A stretch of DNA of 64,000 nt from assembly GCF_003664255.1 (NCBI RefSeq), contig NZ_RCCV01000001.1, forward strand, positions 4,340,001-4,404,000. The letters are read 5' to 3'. This stretch comes from Micromonospora sp. M71_S20. Lineage in GTDB: Bacteria > Actinomycetota > Actinomycetes > Mycobacteriales > Micromonosporaceae. Each line of letters starts with the position of its first letter. The stretch's first letter is position 1. Shown in pieces: positions 19,101 through 54,805 of this stretch. The position numbers and the translations under genes are program-made. The notes beneath the pieces were generated by a model, which saw only the letters and a list, made by a program, of their open reading frames with translations, was not told where the DNA came from and ran no database searches.

Positions 19101-19753
19101 TCGTCGTCGAGGGGCGCGACCGGGCCACGCAGGTCGAGTTCGCGCACGTCCTCACCCCAGGCGCGGGCGAAGTCGTCCCGGAACACCCCGCCGTCCCAGG
19201 CGAAGCGGTACAGGTCGAACAGCGCCATCTGCGGGAAGATCGCCACCAGGTGCGGCGGGGCGGTGCTCGCCGCCAGGTACTGCGACACCCCGAGGTAGGA
19301 GCGGCCGAACATGCCCACCCGGCCGTCGCACCAGGGCTGGGCGGCGATCCACTCGGTGACGTCGTACGTGTCGGTCGCCTCGGCCGTGCCGAACGGGCCG
19401 TCGCTGGTGCCGAACGACGCGCCGCTGCCGCGGCTGTCCACCACCACCACGACGTAGCCCCGGGCCAGCAGGCGCTGCGCGACCGGGAAGGCCCGCAGCG
19501 TCACCTCCCCGGGGGCCACCTCGGCCACGCCGAGGTCCTCGATGTCGGTGAGGTCGACGTCGGCCAGTTCGGCGCGCACCACCGCCAGGAAGTCGTCCCG
19601 CCCGGGGCGCGGCGACACCTGGTGGTAGCGGTCGTGGGCCCAGACGACGGGCGCGGGGTCACGCTGGCCGACCGGCCGGAAGACGTACGCCGCCAGCCGG
19701 GTCCCGTCGCGCGTGGCCACGTACCGGGACTGGCACGTCCAGCTGCGGCTCAT
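16133..19753 (-). CDS. CocE/NonD hydrolase fused to C-(decayed A)-PCP NRPS module
   Basis: 1,206 residues. The ATG at 19753 overlaps the stop of the CmlA-type gene (ATGA). Residues 1-~560 are a complete CocE/NonD (S15, X-Pro dipeptidyl-peptidase) hydrolase: oxyanion and nucleophile region VGMFGRSYLG with Ser152, the acid in GGWHDVWARD, GPWAHTGG with the catalytic His, and a C-terminal jelly-roll. Residues ~567-1000 are a condensation domain with HHVAADP instead of HHxxxDG. Residues ~1010-1110 are the worn remnant of an A domain: CYVLDDRARPVPV and GRLWVSGAGD are still recognisable, but ATP-binding and pocket motifs are gone. A Pro/Ala/Thr linker and a normal PCP (GGDSLFAI, Ser ~1163) follow. 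The PCP must be charged in trans; the free Asp-type A domain at 41207-42787 is the candidate. I know of no described CocE-C-PCP fusion. Confidence 0.9.
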   Translation of the reverse strand: MSRSWTCQSRYVATRDGTRLAAYVFRPVGQRDPAPVVWAHDRYHQVSPRPGRDDFLAVVRAELADVDLTDIEDLGVAEVAPGEVTLRAFPVAQRLLARGYVVVVVDSRGSGASFGTSDGPFGTAEATDTYDVTEWIAAQPWCDGRVGMFGRSYLGVSQYLAASTAPPHLVAIFPQMALFDLYRFAWDGGVFRDDFARAWGEDVRELDLRGPVAPLDDDPDGLLLAAAREQHVANRDVRTMFAGLPGRESRLADTGEAAYLTRSPSALLEAINASGVAVYHLGGWHDVWARDATEWARRLTVPHRVVIGPWAHTGGVLGGAGYNLADEHLRWFDHWLRGRDTGVMDGPAVRYHVLGADAWRTARSWPPEPATTGTWHLGPAGELGPEPRAGQARRYEVDYATTSGKTSRWASGYGSPFQRPDLTDNDTRALCWTSDPLTEAVELVGAPVLRLAARVTDGPADVFAYLESVAPDGTSLYVTEGCGQVDGAPGDSRLEIELHPIAYRFAAGDRIRLAITGADADNALTVPRDVAPVLTVRHDADAAPTLELPRVVAPESGDADAGVDDVTAPLSVAQRAIWLAEQAGTSGAAYHLDAAVELTGPVDAGALHAAVDEIVRRHEALRTTIVEVDEEPVQRIHPAAPLTIARLDLTDARADGWASDVRVTEFRDRRWDLGREWPIRVATVLLPAGRTALLLVVHHVAADPTAAEIFFAELARLYPSYALGKPVRLPDVPCRYADVARRQQAELAGPGMAEQLARWRRYLDGAPQVIALPTDRPRPPVLDHRGGSVRFTVDDALAARLVAAAAVARTSPFTLLTAAFARTLSAYGAGDDLLIGTPSLQRDDESTRDLIGCLVNLLPLRVRVDRDATVAQFLHDVRGSVLTALELRRVPFDTLVGELRPRRDPAVSALVQVCVRYGRAVPDRFRLGEVEAVRLEPPEWTSAKYDLALAVNQVGEDRMVGSLDFRLALFDRATVQRILDSMLTVLDQLVADQDRRVGELSAMPRRELRAVLDGWNPARLPDALAGQDDLPAVARCYVLDDRARPVPVNTPGRLWVSGAGDVDDPYAGTPGARMRDTGATVRWTTAGRLDLVPPATPPGEPAAPPDPATTAGPATTAGPAAAAGPVSDDGRSEVLDQLGQIWATLLQVDGVDPGDDFFDLGGDSLFAIRLISRIRKAYQVRLSLQDVFAAPTLAEQVDLVRERRAS

Positions 19754-21345
19754 GCCAGGTCGGCCCGTCCGTAGAGTTCCCGCGCCGGCACTCCGACGTC
19801 GGCGCAGCGCTGGAAGAACTCCGCCATCTGCTTGAGCTGGTACGACTCGTCGGTGTAGTTCGTCGCCATGACGAACACCAGCCACGGCTCGCGGCCCATC
19901 GCGTACACGTACGCCTGCCGGGCCCGCAGCCGCCGCACGATGCCCATCGCCTCGACGGCGTCGGAGCCGTTGAGCTTGCGGCTGCGGCTCATCTTCTGGT
20001 CGACGCGGCGGGAGAAGAGCGGACCGTACATCCAGGACAGCGGGGCGCCGTCGCACTCCATGCCGAGGAAGGCCATGTCGACGTCACCGATCATGTCGTG
20101 GATGTGGCCGAACAGCGCCGGGTCCACGCAACGGTTGTCCGCGCCGAAGTAGAGGTTCTTCCCGCCGGTACGCACCGAGTAGGTCACCTTCGCGGCGATG
20201 TCGAGGTCGCAGTGCTCGCCGACGAAGGGGCAGACCACGATCTGGCCGTCGGGCAGCTCGATGGTCTCGCCCGGCTCCACGTCGACCACGTTGGGGAAGC
20301 CGAGCGCCTCCAGGCACAGCCGCAACGACGGGTCCTGCAACGCCCCGGCGGCGGTCTTCGGCACGACGACCGTGCCGATACGGTGCCGCAGCTTCAGCAG
20401 GGTGGCCAGTTCGAGGTGGTCCTGGTGCCCGTGCGTGATGAGCACGTAGTCGATGACGTCGGGCAGGTCGGCGTAGGCGTACCGGTCACCGTCGCCCAGG
20501 GCGTCGGACAGGAACGGGTCGGTCATCACGGTGACCGGGCCGGACTGCACCACCACGCAGGCGTGCCCGAAGTAGCGCACCCGCAGCCCCGGGCCGTCCA
20601 GGTTGCGGTCCGGGCTCCCGCTCGGCTCGGCGGAGAACAGCCCGCTGAAGGTGGCCAGGTCGGCGTCGGAGACGTCGAACGCCTCCCGCAGCTCGCCGAA
20701 GGGCCGGGCCGTGGTCATGGTGGAGAAGAGCAGGTCGATGCGGGGATCGCGCAGCGGCATGGTGGCCTGCACGTGCCCGTTGCCGGGGAACCGCGGGGTG
20801 GTCATCGCGAAGGGCCGCTCGTCGCCGGTGGCCAGCGACAGGTCCACCGAGTGGGCGGTCTCGTCGAAGTGCCGCGAGCGGTAGAGCATCCGCTCCGCGA
20901 GCCGGATCCGGGCGTGGTCGTTGAGGTCGTAGACCAGCTCGACGTAGCCGCGCAGCGCCGGCGGGATCTCGCCGTAGCGGGGCGTCAGGTCGAACCCGTC
21001 GGCGAGCTTCTCCAGGTTGACCGTCAGCTCGTCCATGGCCGCCGACAGGTCCGGCATCGGCCCGTCGGCGAGCCGGCCAACAAGGTCGGACACCCCGTCG
21101 AGGTGGTCGTCCTCGAGGTCGACGAACATGCCGCCGCGCAGCTTCGGGTCCCGGGCCGAGCGGCGGTGCAGCGCCGGCGCGTCGAGGAACGAGCGCAGCA
21201 GCGGCACGTGCAGCTTGGCGAAGTTCATCGCCGCCGGCACCGGCGACACCAGGTTCAGCCAGGCGTAGTACCGGTGGATCAGCGGTTCCAGCGCCAGGTT
21301 GGGCCGGGCGTGGACGAGGTCGTGGCTGGCGAAAGGCGGGTTCAT
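19750..21345 (-). CDS. CmlA-type diiron beta-hydroxylase of carrier-bound amino acid
   Basis: 531 residues, the length of chloramphenicol CmlA (about 532). Residues 1-~250 are the extra N-terminal domain of that family and ~255-531 a metallo-beta-lactamase fold. The metal motif HGHQDH places His305, His307, Asp309 and His310 at the same numbers as the CmlA iron ligands; Glu377 (in FVGEHCD) and Asp403 (in FGADNR) also coincide. I did not identify the remaining C-terminal ligand by eye. In CmlA, Glu377 is the switch that makes an oxygenase of the hydrolase fold, so hydroxylation at the beta-carbon of a PCP-tethered amino acid is expected, not hydrolysis. It overlaps the genes on both sides by 4 bases. 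The likely partner is one of the operon's PCPs. Confidence 0.88.
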   Translation of the reverse strand: MNPPFASHDLVHARPNLALEPLIHRYYAWLNLVSPVPAAMNFAKLHVPLLRSFLDAPALHRRSARDPKLRGGMFVDLEDDHLDGVSDLVGRLADGPMPDLSAAMDELTVNLEKLADGFDLTPRYGEIPPALRGYVELVYDLNDHARIRLAERMLYRSRHFDETAHSVDLSLATGDERPFAMTTPRFPGNGHVQATMPLRDPRIDLLFSTMTTARPFGELREAFDVSDADLATFSGLFSAEPSGSPDRNLDGPGLRVRYFGHACVVVQSGPVTVMTDPFLSDALGDGDRYAYADLPDVIDYVLITHGHQDHLELATLLKLRHRIGTVVVPKTAAGALQDPSLRLCLEALGFPNVVDVEPGETIELPDGQIVVCPFVGEHCDLDIAAKVTYSVRTGGKNLYFGADNRCVDPALFGHIHDMIGDVDMAFLGMECDGAPLSWMYGPLFSRRVDQKMSRSRKLNGSDAVEAMGIVRRLRARQAYVYAMGREPWLVFVMATNYTDESYQLKQMAEFFQRCADVGVPARELYGRADLA

Positions 21346-41206: not shown

Positions 41207-42787
41207 CTACCGTCGCGCGCCGGGCCGACCAGGTGCCGGCAACGCGCGCACGTCCAGCTTCCCGCTCGGCGTCCGGGGCAGCTCGTCGAGGCACACCACG
41301 GCGCCGGGCAGCAGGTAGTCGGGCAGCGTCTCGCGGAGCTGCTCGCGCAGCTCACGGGCCGTCGGCCCGGGCGGCTCGCTCGGCACGACGTACGCGACCA
41401 GGCGCGGGACGGAGCCGGTCCCGCCGACCGGCACCACCGCCGCCCGGCGCACCCCGGCGCACCGGCGTACCGCCTGTTCCACCTCGCCCAGCTCGACGCG
41501 GTGGCCTCGGATCTTGACCTGGCCGTCCCGGCGGCCGTGGAACTCCACCAGTCCGTCGGGGTGGCGGGTCACCAGGTCACCGGTGCGGTAGCACCGGCCG
41601 TCGAGATGGCCGGTGGGGAACATCTCGCCGGTCAGTCCGGCGTCGCCGCGGTAGCCGAGGGCGAGCCCCGCGCCGAAGATCAGCAGCTCCCCCTCGACGC
41701 CCGCGGCGACCGGGCGGAGGTCGGCGTCGACGACGGCGGCCCGCGCGTTGTCGATCGGACGGCCGATCGGCACGGTGGCGGTGCCCGGGCGCGCCGCCGG
41801 GTCGGTCGGCACCTCGAAGGTGAGCGCGCCGACGGTCGTCTCGGTCGGGCCGTAGTGGTTGACCATCCGCACGTCCGACAGCTCGCGGACCTGGTCCACC
41901 AGCTCCCAGCGGCACACCTCGCCGCCGACGATCAGCAGGCGGCGGGGCAGCACCCGCTCCGCCGCCTCGTCGAGCAGCGCCGCCAGGTGCGACGGGGTGA
42001 TCTTCAGGACGTCGACGCGGTGCTCGTCCTGGTAGTCGGCGAAGTCGTCGGGATCCGTCGCGGTCCCGGTGGGCACCAGGTGGACCGCGTCTCCCTCGGT
42101 GAGCGCCGGGAAGACCGCGGTGTGCCCGAGGTCCGTCGCGAGGCTGGTCACCGACGCGAAGCGAAGCTGTCCGCCGTCGGCCCGTTCCGGTTCGACCAGC
42201 CGGGCGACGAAGGCCGCGTAGTTGGCCAGGGCCGCGTGGGGGATCTCGACGACCTTGGGTACGCCGGTGGAACCGGACGTGAACACGGTGTAGGCGAGCT
42301 GGTCCCCCGCCACCGGCAACGGACCGCGCGGCGCCCCGGCGCTCTCCGCCGCCGCCCCCGCGTCGATCCAGCCGGCCAGGTCGACGGCGAGCACCACCTG
42401 CCCGGACACCGGTGGGTCGTCGCGATCCGTCACCACGACGGCGGCCCCGCAGCCGCGCAGCTGGCTCTCGACGCGGGCCCGGGGCTGGTTGGCGTCCACG
42501 CAGGCGTAGCCGGCCCCGGCGTGCAGCGCGGCCAGACACGCCACCAGCTGGGCGGCGCCCCGGTGGGCCAGGACGGCCACCGGGGCGCCTGCCGCACCGT
42601 GGTGCCGCAGCACGTCGGCGAGACCCGCGACGGCGTGGCGAAGCTCGGTGTAGCTCAGCGTCGCGTCCGCGCCGACGACGGCCGTACGGTGACCGTGCCG
42701 TCCCGCGGCCGCCCAGATCAGCGCGGGCACCGCCCGGTCGGGGTCCCATCCGGCCGGCGGCCCGGACACCTCGGGATCGGCAGACAT
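41207..42787 (-). CDS. Free-standing adenylation domain, predicted L-aspartate-specific
   Basis: 526 residues from the ATG at 42787; the open frame continues upstream but only through Pro-rich sequence. It is one complete A domain without carrier: FTSGSTGVPKVVEIPH, VNHYGPTETTVG, YRTGDL, TPSGKLDV. The A4 region is of the DLGHTAVF type. By the GrsA alignment the pocket reads DLTKIGHVGK, two conservative changes from the classic Asp code DLTKVGHIGK. Two carrier domains in this locus lack a working loading domain, and the PCP of the CocE fusion protein (16133-19753) still carries the scar of a lost A domain. In-trans loading of Asp onto that PCP is the simplest reading. It is convergent with the acyl-CoA dehydrogenase gene. 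Confidence 0.9.
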   Translation of the reverse strand: MSADPEVSGPPAGWDPDRAVPALIWAAAGRHGHRTAVVGADATLSYTELRHAVAGLADVLRHHGAAGAPVAVLAHRGAAQLVACLAALHAGAGYACVDANQPRARVESQLRGCGAAVVVTDRDDPPVSGQVVLAVDLAGWIDAGAAAESAGAPRGPLPVAGDQLAYTVFTSGSTGVPKVVEIPHAALANYAAFVARLVEPERADGGQLRFASVTSLATDLGHTAVFPALTEGDAVHLVPTGTATDPDDFADYQDEHRVDVLKITPSHLAALLDEAAERVLPRRLLIVGGEVCRWELVDQVRELSDVRMVNHYGPTETTVGALTFEVPTDPAARPGTATVPIGRPIDNARAAVVDADLRPVAAGVEGELLIFGAGLALGYRGDAGLTGEMFPTGHLDGRCYRTGDLVTRHPDGLVEFHGRRDGQVKIRGHRVELGEVEQAVRRCAGVRRAAVVPVGGTGSVPRLVAYVVPSEPPGPTARELREQLRETLPDYLLPGAVVCLDELPRTPSGKLDVRALPAPGRPGARR

Positions 42788-42968: not shown

Positions 42969-44333
42969 TCAGACCGCCACCATGCAGTTGTCGGCGCCGC
43001 TGTCGCGCCCCCGGGCGCTGACGATCCCGGCGGAGCCGTCACCGTAGTAGCGACAGAACAGGCCCGCCGCGCGCCCGCCGAACAGCAACGGCCCGATCAC
43101 CGGGGCGACCTCGACGTCGTGGGGTTCGTCGGCGCCGTCGGCGACGAGCGCGACCCGGCACGTGCGTGGCGCCACGAAGTCCTGCACCACGCTGGTGCCG
43201 TCGGCGGCGGCCTCGGCGACCGCGGACTCCCACGTCGCCTGGTCGACCTCGCCGCCGATGACCACCTGCTTACCGCTCTCGCCCAGGCCCGCCTTGAGCA
43301 CCAGCAGGTCCCGGTTCGCCAGGACGAACGGGAGCAGCTCGACCTCGCGGCCCTCGCGCCCCGTCCTGCGGTCCGAGAGGATCCGCGTCCACGGCACGTA
43401 CCGGTCGACGAGGCTGCGCTCGGCCGCGCTCATCCACGGCCGGCCCTCCGACAGCAGGCCCATGGTCAGCTTGCTGTGCATGAAGGTCGACGTCTGGGTG
43501 CCCACGAGCAGGCAGCCGTTGTCCAGCGCGTCCTGCACGTAGGTGGTGTCGAGACCGGCGTCGAGCCAGTCCGGGATGGTGAAGTTGCGCAGCCCGATCG
43601 GGTAGCGCAGGTGGGGCGGGCAGTCCCACGCCTCCGGCAGCTCCTCGGGCTCGAAGAAGCGGGCGGTGAGGCCGTGGTTGTTGAGGTAGTCGGCCTCCAG
43701 CTGGAAGTAGCGGCTCTGCACGCCGTAGACCCGGGCGCTGCCGACGATGGCCACCCTGGGCGCCAGGCCCAGCTCGGCGCAGAGCGACCGGTACATCTCG
43801 GCGCGCACGGCGAACGGGTCCGGGGAGCTGAACGGGGTCCTGCCCTCGGCGTCGGCGTGGAGCTTGCGCCACACCTCGAGGCGGCAGTGCGTCTCCACCA
43901 CGCCGCCGAGCGCGCCGCTGACGTTGAACTCCAGGAACTGCGGCCCGTCCGGCCCGATGACGACGTCCGGCCGCACGACGCAGTCCGGATAGCGCTCCTC
44001 GACGAACGGGTCCCGCACGAACAGCTGGTCCTCGCTCTGCGGCATGCGGTAGGCCGCCAGCCGGCCCTGCGTGGTGGGGGCCGTTTCGAGGGCGGTGCGG
44101 CGGAGCAGGTCGACCAGCGCGGCGGCCGCCCGGAAGATCTCGGCGTAGGACGCGCGCGGGATTGCGATCGGCGCCGCGGGCAGCAGCCGCTGGTAGGGCC
44201 AGCCCGTGTCCCGCAGCTCGTGGCGGAGCATCCCGCGGATCGTCTCGGCAGGCGCGGCCGGCGCCAGGCGGTGTGTGCCGAACCACGGATGCCCGGCCGG
44301 CCCCGCACTGCCGACATGCTCGCGCACGGTCAT
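42969..44333 (-). CDS. Circularly permuted ATP-grasp ligase-like protein (1)
   Basis: 454 residues. ATG at 44333 with GGGGAGCG upstream. No close named relative is recognised, but the motif order fits circularly permuted ATP-grasp proteins of the glutathionylspermidine-synthetase-like kind: GPQFLEFNVSGALGG (metal- and phosphate-binding Glu/Asn, ~150-165) comes before SKLTMGLLSE (~305), VPWTRIL, and LLVLKAGLGESGKQVVIGGE (~365, Lys of ATP binding), then a VVQDFV strand. Such enzymes form amide bonds through an acyl-phosphate. It is paralogous to the gene at 51757-53139: the same motifs occur in the same order at similar spacing. It is divergent from the MaoC gene. Substrates are unknown. Confidence 0.7.
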   Translation of the reverse strand: MTVREHVGSAGPAGHPWFGTHRLAPAAPAETIRGMLRHELRDTGWPYQRLLPAAPIAIPRASYAEIFRAAAALVDLLRRTALETAPTTQGRLAAYRMPQSEDQLFVRDPFVEERYPDCVVRPDVVIGPDGPQFLEFNVSGALGGVVETHCRLEVWRKLHADAEGRTPFSSPDPFAVRAEMYRSLCAELGLAPRVAIVGSARVYGVQSRYFQLEADYLNNHGLTARFFEPEELPEAWDCPPHLRYPIGLRNFTIPDWLDAGLDTTYVQDALDNGCLLVGTQTSTFMHSKLTMGLLSEGRPWMSAAERSLVDRYVPWTRILSDRRTGREGREVELLPFVLANRDLLVLKAGLGESGKQVVIGGEVDQATWESAVAEAAADGTSVVQDFVAPRTCRVALVADGADEPHDVEVAPVIGPLLFGGRAAGLFCRYYGDGSAGIVSARGRDSGADNCMVAV

Positions 44334-44482: not shown

Positions 44483-44977
44483 ATGACCTTGCGTCACGTC
44501 CAGGGCAACGAGTACCGCGAAGAGCACGGCGGGGACTACGAGGACTTCGAGCCCGGCATGGTGATCCGGCACTGGCCGGGCCGCACCATCTCCGAGACCG
44601 ACAACACCTGGCTGACCCTGCTCACCATGAACCAGCACCCGCTGCACTTCGACGAGCACTACGGCGCGGGCAGCGAGTACGGGCGGGTGCTGGTCAACAG
44701 CGGGATCACCCTGTGCCTGATCGGCGGCATGACCGTGCAGGCCCTGTCGGCGCGGGCCGTGGCGAACCTCGGCTGGGACAAGGTCCGCCTGCGGGAGCCG
44801 GTCTTCGTCGGGGACACGCTGTACGCCACCAGCCGCATCCTCGACAAGCGCCTGAGCCGGTCCCGGCCCGGCCAGGGCATCGTCACGGTGGAGACGACGG
44901 GCACGAAGTCCACCGGCGAGACGGTCATCGTCTTCGAGCGTTCCTTCATGGTCCGCTGCCGGGAGAGCTCCTCCTGA
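44483..44977 (+). CDS. MaoC-type (mesaconyl-CoA-like) hydratase/dehydratase
   Basis: 164 residues; ATG at 44483 after GGGAGAA. Hot-dog fold hydratase: TISETDNTWLTLLTMNQHPLHFDEHYG carries the catalytic Asp/His pair typical of the mesaconyl-CoA hydratase / beta-methylmalyl-CoA dehydratase branch, followed by VGDTLYATSRILDKRLSRSRP. It is convergent with the OCD gene, with one base between stops. Together with the CitE-like lyase it could dehydrate a malyl-CoA-type adduct, the step assigned to KtmB in ketomemicin biosynthesis as I recall it. Confidence 0.85.
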   Translation: MTLRHVQGNEYREEHGGDYEDFEPGMVIRHWPGRTISETDNTWLTLLTMNQHPLHFDEHYGAGSEYGRVLVNSGITLCLIGGMTVQALSARAVANLGWDKVRLREPVFVGDTLYATSRILDKRLSRSRPGQGIVTVETTGTKSTGETVIVFERSFMVRCRESSS

Positions 44978-44978
44978 C

Positions 44979-45941
44979 CTACGCCCCGGGCGCCGCCCCC
45001 TCGTGCAGCGCCACCGCGGCGGCGGTGTCCTCGATGGCCATCCCGACCGTACGCAGGACCGACGTCCGCCCGCCGACGCGCACCGCGCCGGTGACCAGCG
45101 CGCCCAGTTCGCACAGGTCGTCCACGCCGATCAGGCCGGCGGCCAGGGCGGCGCGCACCTCGCCGGCGCCCTCCAGCGCCGCGGTCCGGTCCTCGACGAC
45201 CGCCACGGCGTCGGCCAGCAGGGCGGGGTCGAGCTCGATCGCGTCGGGGTGGGTGCCGCCGATGACGTTGACGTGGGCGCCGGGCGCCACCCAGTCCGCC
45301 TCCACCAGCGGCGTGTTGTCGCTGGTGGAGGTCGCCGTGCAGATGATCGCGGCGTCGGCGACGGCGGCCTTGGCGCTGTCGCAGACGCTCGCGTGCACCG
45401 GGTGGGGCACGACGTCGCCCACCCAGTCGGCGAACTGCTCCGCCCGGTCGCGGGTGCGCGAGAACACCCGGACGGTACGGATCCGGCGCACCGCCGCCAC
45501 CGCGCGCACCAGCGACCGCGCCTGCACCCCCGCCCCGATGACCGCGAGGTCCTCGGCGTCCTCGGCGGCGCACCAGCGGGTCGCCAGGGCGGCGACCGCA
45601 CCGGTGCGGACGGCGGTCAGCTCCGCGCCGTCGAGCAGGGCCGTGATCTGCCCGGTGGTCAGGTCCGTCAGCGCGACGATCCCGTGGATCAGCGGCAGCC
45701 CGCGCCCCGGGTTGTCGGGGGTGAGCGTGGTGATCTTGACACTGCCCACCCCACGCCGCTCCCAGACCGCGGGGCTGACCAGCAGGACCCGCTGGGGGCC
45801 GTGTTCGATGACGGTGCGCGCCGGGGAGTCGGTCCGGCCGGCGGCCAGGTCCGCGAACATCTCGCCCAGCGCGTCGATCACCCGCACCAGCTGGGGCGTA
45901 CCCGCCATCTGCGCGGCGCCGACCGTCACCGGCCCGGTCAT
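44979..45941 (-). CDS. Ornithine cyclodeaminase / mu-crystallin-family NAD(P)-dependent enzyme
   Basis: 320 residues. Family features: SVKITTLTPDNPGRGLPLIHGIVALTD, split by loops; a LLDGAELTAVRTGAVAALATR helix; a Rossmann motif VIGAGVQARSLVRAV; and CTATSTSDNTPLVEADWVAPGAHVNVIGG. The family includes ornithine cyclodeaminase, ketimine reductases, alanine dehydrogenase-like enzymes and N-alkyl amino-acid synthases of siderophore pathways. ATG at 45941 overlaps the lyase stop, placing it last in the 50898-44979 operon. A reductive or deaminating step on an amino or imino acid is expected; the direction is not known. Confidence 0.88.
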   Translation of the reverse strand: MTGPVTVGAAQMAGTPQLVRVIDALGEMFADLAAGRTDSPARTVIEHGPQRVLLVSPAVWERRGVGSVKITTLTPDNPGRGLPLIHGIVALTDLTTGQITALLDGAELTAVRTGAVAALATRWCAAEDAEDLAVIGAGVQARSLVRAVAAVRRIRTVRVFSRTRDRAEQFADWVGDVVPHPVHASVCDSAKAAVADAAIICTATSTSDNTPLVEADWVAPGAHVNVIGGTHPDAIELDPALLADAVAVVEDRTAALEGAGEVRAALAAGLIGVDDLCELGALVTGAVRVGGRTSVLRTVGMAIEDTAAAVALHEGAAPGA

Positions 45942-46807
45942 CCGGCAGCTCCCTCGGTGCCGAACCGGACGGCCCAGGCGTCCTCGCGGGACACCGTGGC
46001 GCGGGCCATCCGGGCGAACGGCGGGCCGACCATGTTGCCGTCCAGCACCGCGATCCCGCCGTTGGCCGCCCGTACGGCCTCGGCCACCCGGCGTGCCAGG
46101 CGCAGGTCGTCCGCCTGGGGGCGCAGCACCCGGTTGATCTCGTCGAGCTCGCCCGGGTGCACCGTCGCCTTGCCGTGGAAGCCGAGCGCCCGCACCCGGG
46201 CGGTCTCCTGCGCTAGGACGGCCGGCTCGGCGAGCCGGAAGTTGGCGGTGTCGATGCAGGCCGTGCCGTGCCGCGCGCAGGCCAGCGCCATCGCCTGCCG
46301 GGCGGCGAGCATGGCCTCCCAGGTGATCTCGACCCCGAGCGTCGCGGCCAGGTCGGCCGAGCCGAGGACCAGCCCGTCACTGGCCGCGGCGATCGCGTCG
46401 ATCCCCGCGACCGCCTCCACGGTCTCCACCGTCACGTAGATCTCCGGATGCGCGTCCGCGGAGGCCAGGATCCGCCGCAGCAGGGCCACCTCGGCCGCCG
46501 AGGTCACCATCGTCATCATGACGATCCCGGGCCGCACCGAGCCCTCCGTGAGCGCCACCAGGTCCTGCACCGCCGCGACGCTGCCCAGCTCGTTGATGCG
46601 TACCGCGACGTTCTCCGGGCGTGGCGCCTTCTCCAGGGCGGACCGGCACACGGTGCGCGCGGCCGGCTTCTCGGCCGCCGGCACGGAGTCCTCCAGGTCG
46701 ATCAGGTGGACGTCCGCGTCGTAGGACCACGCCTTCACGACCCGGTCCAGCGACAGCGCCGGGGTGTAGAGGATGCTGCGCGGGATCGCCCGCGCGGCGC
46801 CGGTCAC
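45938..46807 (-). CDS. HpcH/HpaI aldolase / citrate lyase beta-family (CitE-like) enzyme
   Basis: 289 residues from a GTG at 46807 that overlaps the upstream stop (GTGA). TIM-barrel pattern of CitE and malyl-CoA lyases: RSILYTPAL, HLIDLEDSVP, VRINELGS, YVTVETVEAVAG with the metal-binding Glu, and LVLGSADLAATLG with the metal-binding Asp. The usual LPKvesa strand reads VMMTMVTSA, so a conserved Lys is missing. Family members cleave or form bonds between acyl-CoA enolates and 2-oxo acids. With MaoC and the oxoamine synthase next door it resembles the ketomemicin aldolase KtmA. Confidence 0.88.
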   Translation of the reverse strand: MTGAARAIPRSILYTPALSLDRVVKAWSYDADVHLIDLEDSVPAAEKPAARTVCRSALEKAPRPENVAVRINELGSVAAVQDLVALTEGSVRPGIVMMTMVTSAAEVALLRRILASADAHPEIYVTVETVEAVAGIDAIAAASDGLVLGSADLAATLGVEITWEAMLAARQAMALACARHGTACIDTANFRLAEPAVLAQETARVRALGFHGKATVHPGELDEINRVLRPQADDLRLARRVAEAVRAANGGIAVLDGNMVGPPFARMARATVSREDAWAVRFGTEGAAG

Positions 46808-48054
46808 CGGTTCACCGGCTCGGGTCGCGCGGCCGGGCGGGCGCCCGCCTCGACGAGCACGGAGCACAGCCGGGTGATCTGTTCCTCGGTCTGGCCCGCG
46901 CGCAGCATGACCCGCAGGCCGGCGGTGCCGCGCGCGACGATCGGGAAGAACACCGGCGAGGTGTAGAACCCGGCCGCGAAGACCCGCTGGGCCGCCTCGA
47001 CGACGGTCTCGTCGCTCATCGGCACCACCCGGATCGGGTACGTGCTGCCGGACTGTTCGGTGGCGAGCAGCGAGTCGAACAGCGCGATGTTGGACCGCAG
47101 CCGCCCCTGCAACCGGGTGAGTTCCTCGGTGCGGTGGATCTCGGCCGAGGCGAGCGCGGCGCCCACCGCGGCGGCGTTCATCTTCTGCGAGTAGCCCAGG
47201 GGCCCGGCGAAGCGCTCGATGATCCGCCGCGTCTCCTTGGGGAAGCCGTCGAGCAGGATCGCCGTACCGCCCGCCCCGAAGCCCTTGCTCAGGGTCGCGA
47301 CGGTGATGGTCCGGTCGTCCCGCACCGGGCAGTGCGAGCGGACGTAGCCGATGCCGCGCTCGCCGTACGCCGACAGCGAGTGCGAGTCGTCGTAGAAGAC
47401 CAGCATGTTGTACTTGTCCTGCAACACGGCCAGTTCCTCGACGGGCGCGTAGCCGCCGAGGCTGTCCGAGCCGTCCACGACATAGCAGACACGCTCGTAG
47501 GTGCGGCACATGTCCTCGAGGTAGTCGAGGTCGTGGTGGCGACAGGTGACGACCTCGGTCTCGTCGGCACAGTTCGGCTTGGCGTTGGCCATCGACACGT
47601 GGGCGTTCTTGTCGAAGACCATCAGCGGGCGGGTGCCGTTGCCGAGGTGCCCCGACGCGATCAGCGGCAGCAGGCCGGTGCTGGCCGCCGCCGTGGAGAT
47701 CGCGCTGATCACCATGGCGTCGAACAGCTCGCCCAGCGACTCCTCCAGCTCCAGCAGCACCGACGTCTGCACGCGGGTACGCGGGATGCAGTGGTCCAGC
47801 ACACCGAATCGGCGCAGCGCGTCGACGGCCCCGTCGATCACCTTGGGGTGGGTGTCCAGGTCCAGGTAGGAGCAGACGGTGAAGTTGACGAACTCGTGGC
47901 CGTCGGCCATCCGGAACACGCCGTCGGAGAGGTCGCCGACGATGCCGGCGACCCCGTGCTCCTCGGAGAGGTTCCAGAAGGTGTTCCCCACACCGATGAG
48001 CTTGTCGTTGTTGCGGTAGCGGTGGGTGGGGGTGATGGTCTTGCGCTCGCTCAT
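46804..48054 (-). CDS. Divergent alpha-oxoamine synthase (AONS/KBL/ALAS fold)
   Basis: 416 residues; start ATG at 48054 shares one base with the preceding stop. PLP fold-type I oxoamine-synthase pattern: FVNFTVCSYLDLDTHPKV, VFYDDSHSLSAYGERGIG with the PLP Asp and His, and VATLSKGFGAGG with Lys257. It departs from the family where normal members have GxGGxR and LxFxSGYxAN: here GVLDHCIPRTRVQT and MVISAISTAAASTG. Enzymes of this fold join an amino acid to an acyl-CoA with loss of CO2, making an alpha-amino ketone. The ketomemicin enzyme KtmF belongs to this fold and makes the carbonylmethylene bond. A bulkier amino acid than glycine is inferred from the altered substrate region. Confidence 0.85.
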   Translation of the reverse strand: MSERKTITPTHRYRNNDKLIGVGNTFWNLSEEHGVAGIVGDLSDGVFRMADGHEFVNFTVCSYLDLDTHPKVIDGAVDALRRFGVLDHCIPRTRVQTSVLLELEESLGELFDAMVISAISTAAASTGLLPLIASGHLGNGTRPLMVFDKNAHVSMANAKPNCADETEVVTCRHHDLDYLEDMCRTYERVCYVVDGSDSLGGYAPVEELAVLQDKYNMLVFYDDSHSLSAYGERGIGYVRSHCPVRDDRTITVATLSKGFGAGGTAILLDGFPKETRRIIERFAGPLGYSQKMNAAAVGAALASAEIHRTEELTRLQGRLRSNIALFDSLLATEQSGSTYPIRVVPMSDETVVEAAQRVFAAGFYTSPVFFPIVARGTAGLRVMLRAGQTEEQITRLCSVLVEAGARPAARPEPVNR

Positions 48055-48920
48055 CAGGAGTTCACCTCGGTGGGCTTGTAGCTGTAGACACCCTTGACCC
48101 GCCGGTAGGCGTACGTGTACAGCGCGACGCCGAGCGCGTGCGGCCTACGGAGGATCTTCTTCGACTTCAGCCAGAAATTGACGTTGATATTCATCTCGTC
48201 CAGCGACTCGGCCTGGTGCCACCAGCCGAGCGGCAGGTAGAGCATGTGGCCCGGTTCGAGGACGAAGTCACGGCGCTGGGCGAGCTTGGGCGCCAGCCTC
48301 GGGTAGCGCGCCAGGTCCACGTTGTCCAGGTCGAAGACCTGGGACTTGTCCCCGAACCCGCGCAGCACCGAGCGCGGGTAGTACTCGCGGGAACCGGGCG
48401 GGGCGATGATGAACCGCTTGCGGCCCTCCAGCGCGATGTTGAAGTTCTCGAACTCGTCGAAGTGGTTCTTGGTGAACACACCGCGGTGGCTGATCCACAG
48501 GTTCGCCGCGTACAGCGTGTCGCCGTAGCCGAAGAACTTGTCCGCGTCGAAGCCGATGACGGCGTTCACGTCGGCCGGGCTGTTGCGGATGTTCGACACC
48601 ACCCGGTGCCACGTGCCCGGGGTGGTCAGGTGGCGCTCGTCGGCGAAGAAGTCGCGCAGCTTGATGTCGCGGGTCTCCCAGCGCCCCGGGTGGTTCTTGT
48701 CGCCCGGCTCGGTGAACAGGGTGACGGTCATGTCGGCCAGCCGACTCGCCACGCCCTCCCGGCCGAGCCCCTGCACGTCGCCCGGCAGCGCGATCACCAC
48801 GGGCACGTCGGCCTTGAACAGGCCGCCGGGACCGACGGCCATGAACTCGTCGAACGTCATGCGGGCCACGGGGACACCCGCCGACCCGTTCGCGTTGGAC
48901 ACTGCGTCCGAAACTCCCAT
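48054..48920 (-). CDS. JmjC/cupin_8-type Fe(II)/2-oxoglutarate oxygenase-like protein
   Basis: 288 residues. ATG at 48920 after GAGGAAAGGCG; the open frame further upstream lacks a ribosome site. The core runs FTKNHFDEFENFNIALEG (HxD metal pair), RKRFIIAPPGSREYYPRS, and MLYLPLGWWHQAES (distal His), the arrangement of FIH/JmjC-like cupins that hydroxylate amino-acid side chains or peptides. The C-terminus (~250-288) is basic and aromatic-rich. It sits 41 bases after dmpG and is coupled to the oxoamine synthase, so it may hydroxylate the amino-acid partner or the pseudopeptide. Confidence 0.82.
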   Translation of the reverse strand: MGVSDAVSNANGSAGVPVARMTFDEFMAVGPGGLFKADVPVVIALPGDVQGLGREGVASRLADMTVTLFTEPGDKNHPGRWETRDIKLRDFFADERHLTTPGTWHRVVSNIRNSPADVNAVIGFDADKFFGYGDTLYAANLWISHRGVFTKNHFDEFENFNIALEGRKRFIIAPPGSREYYPRSVLRGFGDKSQVFDLDNVDLARYPRLAPKLAQRRDFVLEPGHMLYLPLGWWHQAESLDEMNINVNFWLKSKKILRRPHALGVALYTYAYRRVKGVYSYKPTEVNS

Positions 48921-48961: not shown

Positions 48962-49972
48962 TCACGTGGTGACCCTACGGGCGCTCAACTCCGCCACCAC
49001 GTCCACGATCAGGTCCTCCTGGCCGGCGATGGCCTGCCGCCTGCCGAGTTCGAAGAACACGTCACGCGCGTCGACGCCGGCACGGCCGGACAGCTCGACC
49101 ACCCGGTGCTTGAACCCGGAGAACACCCCGGCCAGGCCGCTCACGATGGACATCGAGGCGGTCACCGGCGGCGCGGGCATGAGTTCGCGTTCCGCGAGGT
49201 CGGCGGCGTCGAGGAGCGCGTACAGGTCGATGCCGGTCGCGAACCCGCTGCGCTCCAGCACGGGAACGAGCACCTCGAGCTGGGTGTTGCCCGCCCCGGC
49301 GCCGAAGCCGCGCGCGCAACCGTCGATGATCAGGGCGCCGGCCTGCGCCGCGGCCACCGAGTTGGCGACGGCCATGCCGAGGTTGTCGTGGCCGTGGAAG
49401 ATCACCGGCGTGTCGACCGCCGCGGCGATCGCAGCGATCCGCGCGGTGACGTCGGCGGGCAGGAAGTGGCCCGCCGAGTCCATGATCCCGACCGCCTGCG
49501 CGCCGTACGCGACGGCCTGCGCGGCGTGCTCGGCCAGTTCGCCGGGGGACGCCATGTGGCTCATCATCAGCACGCAGTGCGCCTCGGCGCCGGCCTCGCG
49601 CAGGACGTCCAGGTGGCGCTCGGCCAACGACGTCTCGGTGGCGTGCACACCGATGCGGACGACGTCGGCGCCGTGGCCGATCGCGCGCCGCAGGTCGTCG
49701 GAGGTGCCCCAGCCCGGCAGCATGAACACGCCCATCCGGCTGTGCCGCAGCGCCTCCCGGACCGTCGACAGCATCTCGTCGTCGCTGACCGCCGCCTGCC
49801 CGACCTGCAGGGACGACGCGCCGAGGCCGTTGCCGTGGCCGACCTCGACCACCGGGATCCGCGCCGCGTCGGCCGCCTCCGCGTACCGGCGCAGGGCGAG
49901 GGCCCCGAGCTGGTGGCGGACCGCGTGCTGGCCGTCGCGCAGCGTCGGGTCGTGGATCACGACGTTCCTCAT
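48962..49972 (-). CDS. 4-hydroxy-2-oxovalerate aldolase-family enzyme (DmpG/BphI-like)
   Basis: 336 residues; ATG at 49972 overlaps the dehydrogenase stop. DRE-TIM aldolase: [16 protein letters not shown] with the catalytic Arg/Asp and His, [31 protein letters not shown] with the metal-binding His pair, and the C-terminal [13 protein letters not shown] lid. DmpG cleaves 4-hydroxy-2-oxo acids to pyruvate and an aldehyde, which is channelled to DmpF. In this operon the pair could make a specific acyl-CoA for the oxoamine synthase, or it could remain from catabolism. Confidence 0.92.
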
Positions 49973-50898
49973 CGGGCCGCCTCCGTCCGGGCGGACCGGC
50001 CCAGCCGGGCCGCGTGCTGCTCGGCGACCAGGATGGCGGCCGAGTTGATGATGTCGAGGTTGCCGGCGTACCGGGGCAGCACGTCGCTGTGGGCGGTGAC
50101 CTGGAGGGCGACCGTCACCCGGTCGTCGACCACGGTGCAGGCGGTCACCGCGTAGCCGGGGGCGAACGACCGCACCTGCTTGGCCACCGGGTCCACCGCC
50201 GCACGCACCGCGGCGACGTCGGCGCCGGGAATCCGCGCGTGCACGGCCGTCCGGAACGTCGCCGGCGGCACCGCCGGGCTGATGTTGAGGATCGCCTTGA
50301 CGTCGGGTACGCCGGAGAAGGTCGTGACGGCGTGCCGGGTGGTCGCCACGTACTCGTCGAGGTTCAACCGCGTGCCGCGGCCCGCGACGTCGCTGGCCAC
50401 CGTCGAGACGACCTCGATGTAGCTCACCGGGAAGCGGGCGGCGAGCGCGTGCGCGACCGGGATGGACGCCTGACCGCCGCAGCTGATCAGGTTGATGTTG
50501 CGCCCGGTCGTCGCCTCCACCCCGGTCACGGTCGGCACCACCATCCGGCCCGCCCTGCTGGGCGTCAGGTCGACCACCAGCGTGCCGAGCGGCTCCAGCA
50601 GCGACCAGTGGCGCAGGTGCGACGCCGCGTTGGTGGCGTCGAACACGACGTCGAACGCGTCCCCCGCCGCCAGCACGGCGTCGATCCCGGCGGCGCTGAC
50701 GGGATAGCCGAACCGCTCGGCGTGCCGCAGGCCCGCCGAGTCCGGATTGCGCCCGGCCACCAGCCGACAGTCCAGCAGGGAGGAACGGTGGATCTTGCTG
50801 ATCAGGTCCTGGCCGATCGCCCCGGTGCCGATGACGGCGACGGTGGCGGGTTCGACGACGCGGACCTCGGCGTCGGTCACGTCCGCGGTGAGACTCAA
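49969..50898 (-). CDS. Acylating acetaldehyde dehydrogenase (DmpF/BphJ-like), TTG start
   Basis: 309 residues. TTG at 50898 is preferred because GGAGG lies 6 bases upstream; the nearby ATG runs into a stop, and the frame further upstream is Arg/Pro-rich noise. Rossmann start [17 protein letters not shown], catalytic Cys140 in [16 protein letters not shown], and the C-terminal [14 protein letters not shown]. DmpF oxidises the aldehyde from DmpG to its CoA ester with NAD+. It is first in a six-gene operon with overlapping or short gaps (dmpF, dmpG, cupin, oxoamine synthase, CitE-like, OCD). Confidence 0.92.
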
Positions 50899-51756: not shown

Positions 51757-53139
51757 ATGACGACCACCCGGCCGCCCGCAGTGAGCAGGTCGCCACTGGG
51801 CCGCGCGTACGCCGAGCACCTCGCCCGGAGCGCGTCGACGGACCACCCGACCGCCGCCGCCCTCGACTCGGCCATCCTCGAGCCGTACCGGGACCGGTTC
51901 ATGAACGGCCCCGCCTTCCTGGCCGAGAGCGAGTGCCGGGCCGTCGCCCGGGACCTCCGCACGGTCTACGACCTGCTGCGCGCCCTGCCGGAGCGGGTGT
52001 TCGACGGAGACCTCACCGCGCTGGCCGAGGCCGTCGGCATGGATCCCCGGCAGACGGCGCTAATCACGCGCGGCGCCCGCGCCGGGTCGCTCGTGCCGCT
52101 GGGCCGCGCCGACCTCTACCACGACGGCTCGGGCTTCCGCCTGCTCGAGTTCAACCTGACCAGCGCCCTCGGCGGCTTCGAGTGTGCCGAAATCAACCGG
52201 GCGATGCTGGCGTACCCGCCGCTGCGGGAGTTCGTGGACCGGCACCGGCTCCGGTACCGGGACACGCTGGGCTGCATCGTGCGGACGATGTACGCCGAGT
52301 GCGCCCCGATGATCCCCGCGGACCGACCGCCCGTCGTCGCCGTGGTGGACACGACGGAGAACTACCCGATCGTGGGCGGCCGCCTGGAGGTGCTCGCCGA
52401 GCTGCTCGCCGGGTACGGGATCGAGGGGATCGGCTGCCACCTCGGCCAGTTCACGTACCCGCAGGGTCGGCCGACCGTGGCGGGCCGCGCCGTCGACGTC
52501 GTCGTGCGCTACTTCCTGCCCGAGGACCTGGCGGACCCGGCGGTGGAGGCCCAGGTGGAGCCGCTGCTGGTCGCCGCGGAGCAGGAGAAGGTCGGCCTGT
52601 TCAGCCGCCTGGACGCCGAGCTCTACGGCAACAAGGGCACCCTGGCCATGCTCTCCGACGACCGGCACCGGGGCCTGTTCGACGCCGACGAGCTGGCCTG
52701 CATCGACCGGATCCTGCCGTGGACCCGGCACGTACGCCCGCGCGGCACCGATCCCGAGGGGGCCCAGGTCGACCTGCTCGCCTACGCCCGCGCCCGGCAG
52801 GAGGAGCTGGTCCTGAAGCCGACGCTGCTGCACGGGGGCAACGGCGTGCTCGCCGGCTGGACGGTGGACGCCGACGAGTGGCGGTCCCGGCTCGACTCCG
52901 CGCTGGACGGCCCGTTCGTGCTGCAACGCCGGGTCCGGCCCGCCGCCGAACCGTTTCCCGACGGCGCGGGCGGCGTGCAGGACCTCTACCTCAACTGGGG
53001 GGTCTACCTGGCCGACCGCGACGTCGTGGACGAGGACGGATACGCCGGCTGCCTCGTCCGCGGCAGCACCGACCCGGGGGTCGGGGTGGTCAGCATGGCC
53101 GGCGGCGCGAGGATCGGCTGCACCTTCCACGGCGGCTGA
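51757..53139 (+). CDS. Circularly permuted ATP-grasp ligase-like protein (2)
   Basis: 460 residues; ATG at 51757 with AAAGGA upstream. Motifs parallel those of the protein at 42969-44333: FRLLEFNLTSALGG (~130), ELYGNKGTLAMLSD (~290), RILPWTRHV, LVLKPTLLHGGNGVLAGW (~350) and FVLQRRV. The gene is divergent from the dmpF operon and is the last one plausibly belonging to the locus, before a cluster of hairpins. Two such ligases bracketing one operon suggest two successive amide-bond steps, or one ligase for each partner. No closer function can be claimed. Confidence 0.7.
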   Translation: MTTTRPPAVSRSPLGRAYAEHLARSASTDHPTAAALDSAILEPYRDRFMNGPAFLAESECRAVARDLRTVYDLLRALPERVFDGDLTALAEAVGMDPRQTALITRGARAGSLVPLGRADLYHDGSGFRLLEFNLTSALGGFECAEINRAMLAYPPLREFVDRHRLRYRDTLGCIVRTMYAECAPMIPADRPPVVAVVDTTENYPIVGGRLEVLAELLAGYGIEGIGCHLGQFTYPQGRPTVAGRAVDVVVRYFLPEDLADPAVEAQVEPLLVAAEQEKVGLFSRLDAELYGNKGTLAMLSDDRHRGLFDADELACIDRILPWTRHVRPRGTDPEGAQVDLLAYARARQEELVLKPTLLHGGNGVLAGWTVDADEWRSRLDSALDGPFVLQRRVRPAAEPFPDGAGGVQDLYLNWGVYLADRDVVDEDGYAGCLVRGSTDPGVGVVSMAGGARIGCTFHGG

Positions 53140-53299: not shown

Positions 53300-54805
53300 T
53301 CAGGCACCCGCGCCGGAGCGCACCCGGTCGATCCAGGCCTCGACGTCGTCGGCGGTACGCGGCATGGCCGACGACAGGTTCTCGTGGCCGTCCTCGGTGA
53401 CCAGCACGTTGTCCTCGATACGGACGCCGATGCCACGGAACTCCGCCGGCGCCAGCAGGTCGTCCGCCTTGAAGTACAGGCCGGGCTCGACGGTGAGGAT
53501 CATCCCGGGCTTCAGCTCGCCGTCCATGTAGTCCTGCCGCAGCAGCATCTGGCAGTCGTGCACGTCCATGCCGAGGTGGTGGGACGTGCCGTGGACCATC
53601 CACCGCCGGTGCCAGCCGCCGCTCTCGCGGTCCAGGGTCTGCTCGAGGGTCACCCCCTCCGGCAGCAGTCCCCACTCGTACAGCCGTCGGGCGATGACCA
53701 CGTTCGCGGCGGCGTGGATGTCGCTGAACTTGTTGCCCGGCTTCACCGCCGCCAGGCCGGCCTCCTGCGCCTCCAGGACCGCCTCGTAGATCTTGCGCTG
53801 CACGTCGGTGAAGCGACCGGTCACCGGGAGGGTGCGGGTGATGTCGGCGGTGTAGAGGGAGTCGACCTCGACACCGGCGTCCACCAGGATGAGGTCGCCC
53901 TCGCGGACCGGCCCGGTGTTCTTCGTCCAGTGGATGGTGTTGGCGTGGTCGCCGGACGCGCAGATGGTCTCGTAGCCGATGCCGTTGCCGTCGTGGCGGG
54001 CGTACAGGCCGAAGAGGCCCTCGACCCACCGCTCGCCGCGCTCCTTGCCGACGGCCTCGGGCAGCCCGGCGATGATGGCCTCGAAGCCCCGGTGGGTGGC
54101 GGCGATCGCCTTGCGCATCTCGCCCACCTCCCACTCGTCCTTGAGCAGGCGCATCCCCGAGAGGTGGCGGGCCAGCTCCTCGTCCGCCTCGTGCTGCTGC
54201 GTCACCGACGCGGGCGTCTCCGCCTGGGCCCGGGTCTCGTCGACGAGCCGGGCGAGCTCGCCGTCGGCCCCCCGCACGACGCGCACCACGGTCGCGCCGG
54301 CGTCCTTGGCCAGGACGTCCGGGAGCGAGTCGATGTGCCGGGTGCCGATGCCCAGCCGCTGCTCGATCTCGCCCATCGTCGGGCGGGGCCCGACCCAGAA
54401 CTCGCCGAACCGGGAATCCGCGAAGAACTCCTCGCTGTCGCGCGGCGCGAGCGGCCGGAAGAACAGGATCGCCTCGTGGCCGTCGGGCCTGGGATCCAGC
54501 ACTAGGACGCTGTCGGGCTCGGTGTCGAACCCGAGACCGGTCAGCCAGGCGAAGGCCGTGTGCGGCCGGAAGGTGTAGTCGGTGTCGTTGCTGCGCACCT
54601 TGAGGCCGCCGGCGGGGATGATGAGGCGCTCGCCGGGGAACCGCCGTGACAAGGCCGCCCGGCGGCGGGCCGCGTGGTCGGCGACCTCCGCCCGCGGGAC
54701 AGGTGCCGCATCCGGACTGGCCCAACCGGAGGCGATGAAAGCGCGGAACGCGTCGCTCGTCGGGGTGTTGCGGTGGCTGGCTTTCACCTGCTCGTCGCTT
54801 GTCAT
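53300..54805 (-). CDS. Xaa-Pro aminopeptidase (M24B, aminopeptidase P)
   Basis: 501 residues from the ATG at 54805; the frame is open upstream without support. N-terminal creatinase-like domain (~20-190), then the M24 pita-bread domain with the five metal ligands: Asp in ILVDAGVEVD, Asp in YTADITRTLP, His in GTSHHLGMDVHD, Glu in LTVEPGLYF and Glu in VRIEDNVLV. It removes an N-terminal residue before proline, in the cytoplasm. Probably housekeeping, though it is a second X-Pro-type peptidase near the CocE fusion. Confidence 0.92.
   Translation of the reverse strand: MTSDEQVKASHRNTPTSDAFRAFIASGWASPDAAPVPRAEVADHAARRRAALSRRFPGERLIIPAGGLKVRSNDTDYTFRPHTAFAWLTGLGFDTEPDSVLVLDPRPDGHEAILFFRPLAPRDSEEFFADSRFGEFWVGPRPTMGEIEQRLGIGTRHIDSLPDVLAKDAGATVVRVVRGADGELARLVDETRAQAETPASVTQQHEADEELARHLSGMRLLKDEWEVGEMRKAIAATHRGFEAIIAGLPEAVGKERGERWVEGLFGLYARHDGNGIGYETICASGDHANTIHWTKNTGPVREGDLILVDAGVEVDSLYTADITRTLPVTGRFTDVQRKIYEAVLEAQEAGLAAVKPGNKFSDIHAAANVVIARRLYEWGLLPEGVTLEQTLDRESGGWHRRWMVHGTSHHLGMDVHDCQMLLRQDYMDGELKPGMILTVEPGLYFKADDLLAPAEFRGIGVRIEDNVLVTEDGHENLSSAMPRTADDVEAWIDRVRSGAGA

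Follow-up and report, generated by a model that had tools for sequence, protein, structure and literature searches.

A group of genes in Micromonospora sp. M71_S20 probably works, at its core, like the ketomemicin pathway, and we lean towards reading it as a sister variant of that pathway, a cassette that stands by itself, needs no carrier protein and makes an alpha-aminoketone pseudopeptide. The genes lie in a 64-kb stretch of the 7.8-Mb genome (G000), referred to here as "the window" (the whole stretch that was analysed; G+C 73.6%). The named cassette genes code for a CitE/HpcH-type aldolase, a MaoC-type dehydratase, a pyridoxal phosphate (PLP)-dependent alpha-oxoamine synthase (AOS), an OCD/mu-crystallin-type reductase, a cupin_8/JmjC hydroxylase and a DmpF/DmpG pair. 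The direct basis of the proposal is gene content, homology, conservation, the fold of the first of two ATP-grasp-like ligases, and intact motifs. Protease inhibitors are a field where ketone isosteres of the peptide bond are highly valued, yet only a few natural routes to such groups are known.

Gene content and relation to ketomemicin biosynthesis

Between 41.2 and 54.8 kb of the window the gene order is adenylation enzyme, ATP-grasp-like ligase 1, MaoC, OCD, CitE, AOS, cupin, DmpG, DmpF, ATP-grasp-like ligase 2 and an aminopeptidase P-like M24 metallopeptidase, all on the minus strand except MaoC and ligase 2. The original prediction, made from the sequence alone, had placed a CitE/HpcH lyase, a MaoC hydratase and an AOS together here, and all three are present with strong family matches: the ktmA-like CitE aldolase at 45938..46807 (minus strand, PF03328), the ktmC-like MaoC dehydratase at 44483..44977 (plus strand, PF01575 and PF19315) and the ktmB-like AOS at 46804..48054 (minus strand). 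They are grouped as described, but MaoC is convergent with the rest and the OCD reductase (44979..45941, minus strand; PF02423, E 2.7e-57) sits between MaoC and CitE. The AOS scores 551.3 bits against PRK07505, where the cut-off is 342, which makes it a member of that AOS-like subfamily of NCBIfam, and its PLP lysine is kept in 81 of 81 family rows. The remaining named genes, also with strong family matches and, like the others, no internal stops, code for the cupin_8/JmjC Fe(II)/2-oxoglutarate hydroxylase (48054..48902, minus strand; PF13621), whose closest solved relatives are FIH and JMJD5 and whose HxD...H metal triad is kept in 49/49 rows, for the DmpG-type pyruvate aldolase (48962..49972, minus strand; TIGR03217 over cut-off) and for the DmpF-type acylating aldehyde dehydrogenase (49969..50880, minus strand; TIGR03215 over cut-off). 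A structure model of the AOS (pLDDT, the predicted local distance difference test score, 80.7; 10 alignment rows) was not used further.

The unit reaches beyond these genes: two ATP-grasp-like genes and probably the aminopeptidase P gene also belong to it. Ligase 1 (454 aa; 42969..44333, minus strand) has no family match in Pfam and NCBIfam scans; its predicted structure matches the glutathione-synthetase (GSS) fold over the full length, which places it among the GSS-fold ATP-grasp ligases, a fold shared with glutathionylspermidine synthetase. Ligase 2 (452 aa; 51781..53139, plus strand) is a divergent relative with 26% identity, and the two have in common invariant R, D, E and N residues and two lysines.

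In ketomemicin biosynthesis, as given in the accessible part of PMC11943689, ktmA codes for an aldolase, ktmB for a PLP acyltransferase, ktmC for a dehydratase, ktmD for a ligase, ktmE for an amidinotransferase and ktmF for a dehydrogenase; the letters KtmA, KtmB and KtmF, which the original prediction named for comparison with the three proteins, do not agree with this assignment. To compare the window with its relatives, 201 genomes (the window's own and 200 others) were searched with the AOS at E <= 1e-60, and 21 had a match. Orthologues with 88-100% identity occur in 12 genomes, the window's included, and a different copy with 41-49% identity occurs in 12; three genomes have both types. 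The lower-identity copies have MaoC adjacent in 12/12 cases and CitE in 11/12 (1.5-kb flanks). When the 20 kb around seven of these twelve were compared in detail, a zinc-dehydrogenase homologue was found to adjoin CitE, AOS and MaoC in five (Pfam-supported in L106, from genome G043), and four of the five, L106 among them, carry a PGM1-type ligase; that of L107 has PreAtp-grasp and PGM1_C domains by Pfam, and the L106 homologue is 76% identical to it. L108 has the zinc dehydrogenase, yet no PGM1-type homologue, and in L111 an OCD gene (34% identity to the window's) adjoins MaoC. Because CitE, AOS and MaoC with a zinc dehydrogenase and a PGM1-type ligase make up the ktm set, bar the amidinotransferase, as far as the accessible text of PMC11943689 describes it, we call such loci "ktm-type".

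The window's proteins are related to the ktm-type set of L106 with identities of 46% for AOS, 37% for CitE and 52% for MaoC. Best matches to catabolic enzymes would have spoken against the ketomemicin analogy, and this is not what the sequence comparison gives: the window's CitE scores 143.6 bits against the ktm-type copy of G043 and 56.6 against that genome's other CitE, and its MaoC scores 173.6 bits against the ktm-type copy and 127 against the other MaoC. The cassette AOS proteins nevertheless form one clade of their own (52 rows, support 100/99), separate from the ktm-type rows, and its closest named kin to the window are Micromonospora sp. C31 and M. deserti. In trees with 11 chosen cassette rows CitE groups (98/100) and MaoC groups (94/95); the deep branching of the AOS-linked CitE and MaoC groups, with its long branches, is not resolved there.

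The ketomemicin pathway of Salinispora, Micromonospora and Streptomyces mobaraensis has in common with the cassette a CitE-type aldolase, a MaoC dehydratase and a PLP acyltransferase, which make a carbonylmethylene isostere, and also a stand-alone ATP-grasp ligase and no nonribosomal peptide synthetase (NRPS), according to the available portion of PMC11943689. Among the window genes scanned with Pfam there was no PGM1-type ATP-grasp ligase (ktmD), no zinc dehydrogenase (ktmF) and no recognised amidinotransferase (ktmE), for which the candidate ktm neighbours likewise gave no Pfam match. In addition to its separate AOS clade, the cassette has GSS-fold ligase(s), OCD, a JmjC hydroxylase, DmpFG and aminopeptidase P. 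A true ktm cluster was therefore rejected, on the tested absence of the ktmD ligase and the ktmF dehydrogenase, and the ketomemicin analogy holds for CitE, MaoC and AOS but not for the ligase and the dehydrogenase, whose places appear to be taken by the two ATP-grasp-like ligases and the OCD reductase. The cassette would thus be a variant of the carbonylmethylene pseudopeptide kind, sister to the ketomemicin pathway.

A DmpF/DmpG-type pair has been recruited to a natural product before: NikA/NikB of nikkomycin biosynthesis builds an aryl hydroxy acid, but we know of no CitE, MaoC or AOS partner there. The dynaplanin enzymes DynZ/DynY resemble the cassette in that a stand-alone PLP C-acyltransferase leads to an arginyl pseudopeptide and the cluster is missed by standard predictors; the accessible part of PMC9239090 does not mention CitE, MaoC or DmpFG for that pathway. 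The best solved relative of the window's AOS is 8xha, named Alb29 (albogrisin) in the available text of PMC11906848; the match is only 306.5 bits, and Alb29 uses L-glutamate. In the open-licence literature we found no paper linking an oxoamine synthase gene cluster with ATP-grasp, or a DmpF/DmpG-type pair with a PLP-dependent cluster; among titles on ketomethylene gene clusters only the ketomemicin paper was relevant, and among the papers listed for Alb29 and albogrisin none concerned a cluster like this cassette.

Distribution and natural variants of the cassette

The original prediction regarded the joining of the triad to cupin, OCD and DmpFG genes as a combination not known to it. The combination is real and is conserved. 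One scan of genome contigs gave 250 confirmed loci, of which the best 80 were kept (locus counts refer to these 80), and the cassette is found in 48 of them (L026-L070, L072, L076 and L095), a recurrence beyond chance. By tblastn, AOS and cupin are present in 48/48 cassette loci, CitE, MaoC and OCD in 47/48 (all except L037), ligase 1 in 45/48 (not in L061, L065 and L067), DmpF and DmpG in 41/48, and ligase 2 in 13/48; counts by open reading frame (ORF) family, in which the two ligases form one family, agree within one locus for these genes. Among 396 genomes across the phylum, cassette-type AOS (E <= 1e-60) was found only in the window's own genome, and two others have copies with 43-46% identity. 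The cassette is recurrent, not common.

Two Nocardia loci (L061, L065) and one from Xenorhabdus hominickii (L067) carry a minimal eight-gene operon in the order MFS-cupin-AOS-CitE-DmpF-DmpG-OCD-MaoC, the first gene coding for a major facilitator superfamily (MFS) exporter; in the flanks covered, neither the ligases nor the NRPS of the window have a counterpart. The presence of the minimal operon in Xenorhabdus, a member of the Pseudomonadota, suggests transfer between phyla.

The zinc-dehydrogenase family (f12, identified by Pfam on one member) is found in 0/48 cassette loci. The remaining AOS loci in the set of 80 include nine with OCD alone, seven with f12 alone and three, all from Myxococcus, with both. 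OCD and the zinc dehydrogenase are therefore mostly alternatives, which fits OCD standing in for KtmF.

A natural split of the cassette is found in S. goshikiensis, which has a complete cassette (L210) and a second locus (L037) where the genes present are those for ligase 2, the MFS protein, cupin, AOS and ligase 1 alone. A search of 21 kb of L037 at E <= 1e-3 gave no match to CitE, OCD, MaoC, DmpF or DmpG, and the genome holds a single copy of the cassette-type MaoC. When the cupin, AOS and ligases of L037 are compared with those of three intact cassettes, the ratio of nonsynonymous to synonymous substitution rates (dN/dS) is 0.20-0.37; among those three cassettes it is 0.17-0.31. Because L037 keeps AOS, cupin and ligases at ratios near those of intact cassettes, the split suggests that DmpF, DmpG, CitE, OCD and MaoC make a shared precursor that is supplied in trans, while AOS, cupin and ligases define the product.

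The DmpG proteins have kept two motifs and differ from the catabolic enzyme at other residues. All 41 rows long enough to cover the RDGxH motif have it, and HxH is kept as well; a tyrosine of the catabolic enzyme is phenylalanine in 42/42 aligned rows, which include a non-cassette locus from Trinickia (L073), and a pocket-loop residue is tryptophan in 41/42. Four correctly read catabolic-type DmpG copies of the same genus retain the tyrosine. As judged from these residues, the changes point to altered aldehyde handling. In DmpF the catalytic cysteine is found in 43/43 rows. Phenylalanine is also found in another DmpG that the window's genome encodes next to an NRPS (L131). In this genome a second biosynthetic-looking DmpF-DmpG pair directly follows an NRPS gene at L211 (G000:C4:600000-619999), positions 8952-10828, its DmpG carrying the phenylalanine motif GIAGVFSGF.

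Six loci, five from Salinispora and one from M. echinofusca (L027), are without DmpFG and have kept CitE, OCD and MaoC; these Salinispora loci have no ligase 2. Each of five presumed Salinispora genomes has one DmpG elsewhere, with 41% identity, in line with a role of DmpFG in providing an early precursor that can be replaced.

Proposed pathway

The pathway we infer, including its product, all its substrates, the ketone bond, the order within the second and third steps, the reactions of OCD and cupin, what the peptidase does and the target, would run as follows. By reduction of a small acyl-CoA, most likely acetyl-CoA, DmpF would produce an aldehyde, which DmpG would join with pyruvate to give a 4-hydroxy-2-oxo acid. 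The CitE aldolase would then condense a malonyl-CoA-type donor with this acid; KtmA uses phenylpyruvate in the corresponding condensation. MaoC would dehydrate the product, and the OCD reductase, in place of KtmF, would saturate the acyl-CoA. The AOS would join the acyl-CoA to an amino acid with loss of CO2, leaving a carbon-carbon bond in place of the amide, and the cupin would hydroxylate. In most hosts one or two ATP-grasp ligases would add amino acids and a pump would export the compound, with the extra aminopeptidase P either protecting the producer or finishing the molecule.

Several facts weigh against this scheme. OCD relatives are imine reductases, amino acid dehydrogenases and cyclodeaminases, among which an acyl-reducing role would be unusual, and the three Myxococcus loci have OCD and the zinc dehydrogenase together. 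DmpFG is missing in 7/48 cassette loci, so the 2-oxo acid may vary. NRPS- or adenylation-like genes flank nine of the 48 (L026, L027, L029, L035, L039, L050, L052, L055 and L095), and four NRPS-linked Micromonospora genomes are without the MFS gene that relatives have between ligase 2 and DmpF, an absence in keeping with a merger. The dN/dS values of L037 are slightly higher than among intact cassettes for cupin, AOS and ligase 2 (slightly lower for ligase 1), and the loss at L037 could be recent decay, since dN/dS averages over time.

A broader proposal is put forward tentatively, and we regard it as rather unlikely: a widespread, uncharacterised, NRPS-independent pseudopeptide class whose ketone isostere would owe its side chain to de novo synthesis by DmpFG from pyruvate and a small acyl-CoA, not to an amino acid, followed by JmjC hydroxylation and extension by GSS-fold ligases, with aminopeptidase P as the target, marked by the repeated recruitment of an extra copy. 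The cassette spans actinobacterial genera and Xenorhabdus, has no carrier-protein machinery of its own and may carry a hint of its own target; its minimal, extended and naturally split forms make the order of the pathway directly testable.

Linked peptidase, NRPS neighbourhood and alternative readings

The aminopeptidase P-like M24 metallopeptidase at 53300..54805 (minus strand; PF00557, PF05195) is an extra copy tied to the cassette and probably part of the unit; the genome has two other full-length copies. M24 genes of this type lie in the flanks (up to 10 kb) of 29/48 loci by ORF family and of 30 by tblastn, with metal ligands kept in 30/30 rows. From the 0-4 matches per genome in ten genomes counted, linkage by chance is estimated at about 1%. 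Copies on the same strand as the cassette (15 rows, L059 left out) lie beside ligase 2 in Micromonospora and after MaoC in Salinispora and Streptomyces, and copies on the opposite strand (14 rows) lie upstream of the MFS gene. The two groups, which were named after the tree was seen, do not together form one clade according to the approximately unbiased (AU) test (p = 0.0009). An extra aminopeptidase P was thus probably recruited beside the cassette at least twice, and independent recruitment argues for a functional link: the peptidase may be the target itself, as a resistant or spare copy, or it may serve in maturation. In L041 (Streptomyces sp. I6) the M24 gene after MaoC reads in two pieces.

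That the linked peptidase strips a protective amino acid added by the ligases, instead of serving as a resistant copy of the target, is compatible with the pseudopeptide reading and a serious possibility, if short of an even one. By ORF family, the peptidase is absent from all three loci without a ligase and present in 29 of the 45 others, and the accessible part of PMC4664946 describes a precedent, PepN, the maturation peptidase for leucylblasticidin S in the blasticidin S pathway. PepN, however, stands alone outside its cluster in that account. In 16 of the 45 ligase-bearing loci the ORF families show no peptidase linked to the cassette, the task could fall to other aminopeptidases, and independent recruitment is also compatible with target duplication.

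An NRPS does adjoin the cassette in the window, as the original prediction stated; the block includes condensation, adenylation, thiolation and ketosynthase domains, an S15 peptidase, and CmlA-type, luciferase-like and aminotransferase parts. Supply of a ketone unit to the NRPS as a general role, or an obligate NRPS partner, was rejected on distribution: 39/48 cassette loci, including the minimal operons L061, L065 and L067, have no NRPS-like match in the flanks covered, and of the 12 genomes among the 201 that carry the cassette, eight are without PhyH, a marker of the NRPS block. A narrower reading, that the cassette has merged with the neighbouring NRPS/polyketide synthase in this Micromonospora lineage and that the ketone unit is loaded, perhaps by the free-standing adenylation enzyme, we consider unlikely. 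In its favour, PhyH occurs in only 4/201 genomes, each with the cassette adjacent (L026 is from one of them); these four lack the MFS gene of the cassette; conservation of the adenylation gene goes together with that of the NRPS block; and eight further cassette loci have NRPS-like genes of other kinds in their flanks. But the same distribution counts against it, the NRPS-linked genomes still keep the ATP-grasp ligases and the peptidase, and the four are of close shared ancestry, so the linkage may be inherited. M. deserti (L076) is also without the MFS gene, though it has no NRPS block.

The adenylation enzyme itself (41207..42769, minus strand; TIGR01733) is kept in the close relatives G025, G086 and G094 and is a lineage-specific neighbour whose membership in the cassette is uncertain. 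The NRPS-block protein at 16133-19753 of the window (minus strand) unites an S15 X-Pro dipeptidyl-peptidase-like domain with condensation and carrier domains, and the neighbouring gene (19750-21345) codes for a CmlA-type beta-hydroxylase. Scans of the window with Rfam, at the gathering threshold, and for tRNA genes gave no hits.

The closest solved relatives of the OCD protein are mu-crystallin and Delta1-pyrroline-2-carboxylate reductase, and such imine reductases suggest a different division of labour, in which a proline-like residue would come from DmpF, DmpG and OCD (pyruvate and an amino aldehyde giving, after cyclisation, a pyrroline carboxylate that OCD reduces) and a separate part from AOS, CitE and MaoC, with the ligases linking the two. 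Aminopeptidase P cuts before proline, and its repeated linkage would fit such a residue. Yet six of the seven loci without DmpFG still have OCD, the minimal operons have no ligase match to join two parts, and DmpF would need an aminoacyl-CoA for which the cassette genes offer no obvious supplier; we regard this reading as improbable, somewhat more so than the merger. Finally, a catabolic or salvage operon, in which an itaconate-type C-C lyase and hydratase with DmpFG degrade a carbon source, is very improbable, and its simple form was rejected on the NCBIfam cut-offs and the paralogue comparison: MaoC and CitE do match the RipB and RipC models, but far under the curated cut-offs (RipB/Ich 197.8 of 340 bits, RipC 185.1 of 375), both the window's genome and G043 have other, more distant paralogues of CitE and MaoC, and degradation would not account for an AOS, a JmjC hydroxylase, ATP-grasp ligases and an exporter.

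The scans also brought up further loci of interest. In Streptomyces sp. NRRL S-455 (L058, 3016-4155) a further ligase-1 relative (31% identity) adjoins an adenylation-like match, upstream of a complete cassette. AOS-CitE-MaoC triads in Myxococcus and Dyella (L080, L083, L084, L104) lie near NRPS-like genes and a zinc-dehydrogenase-type family, and such triads may be coupled to NRPSs elsewhere. Six Pseudomonas loci (L081, L087, L091, L092, L098, L105) combine AOS-CitE-MaoC-OCD with a 2-hydroxyacid dehydrogenase, an aminotransferase and an MFS gene, and five of the six with a class II aldolase family (Pfam, single members); they appear to be another uncharacterised relative with a different aldolase. 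A further AOS clade (L085, L088, L090, L094, L099, L100, L102) is linked to acyl-CoA carboxylase-type families (Pfam, single members), with a 3-hydroxyacyl-CoA dehydrogenase-type family in five of the seven, and includes Chromobacterium aquaticum; the arphamenines come from Chromobacterium violaceum, according to the accessible part of PMC11943689.

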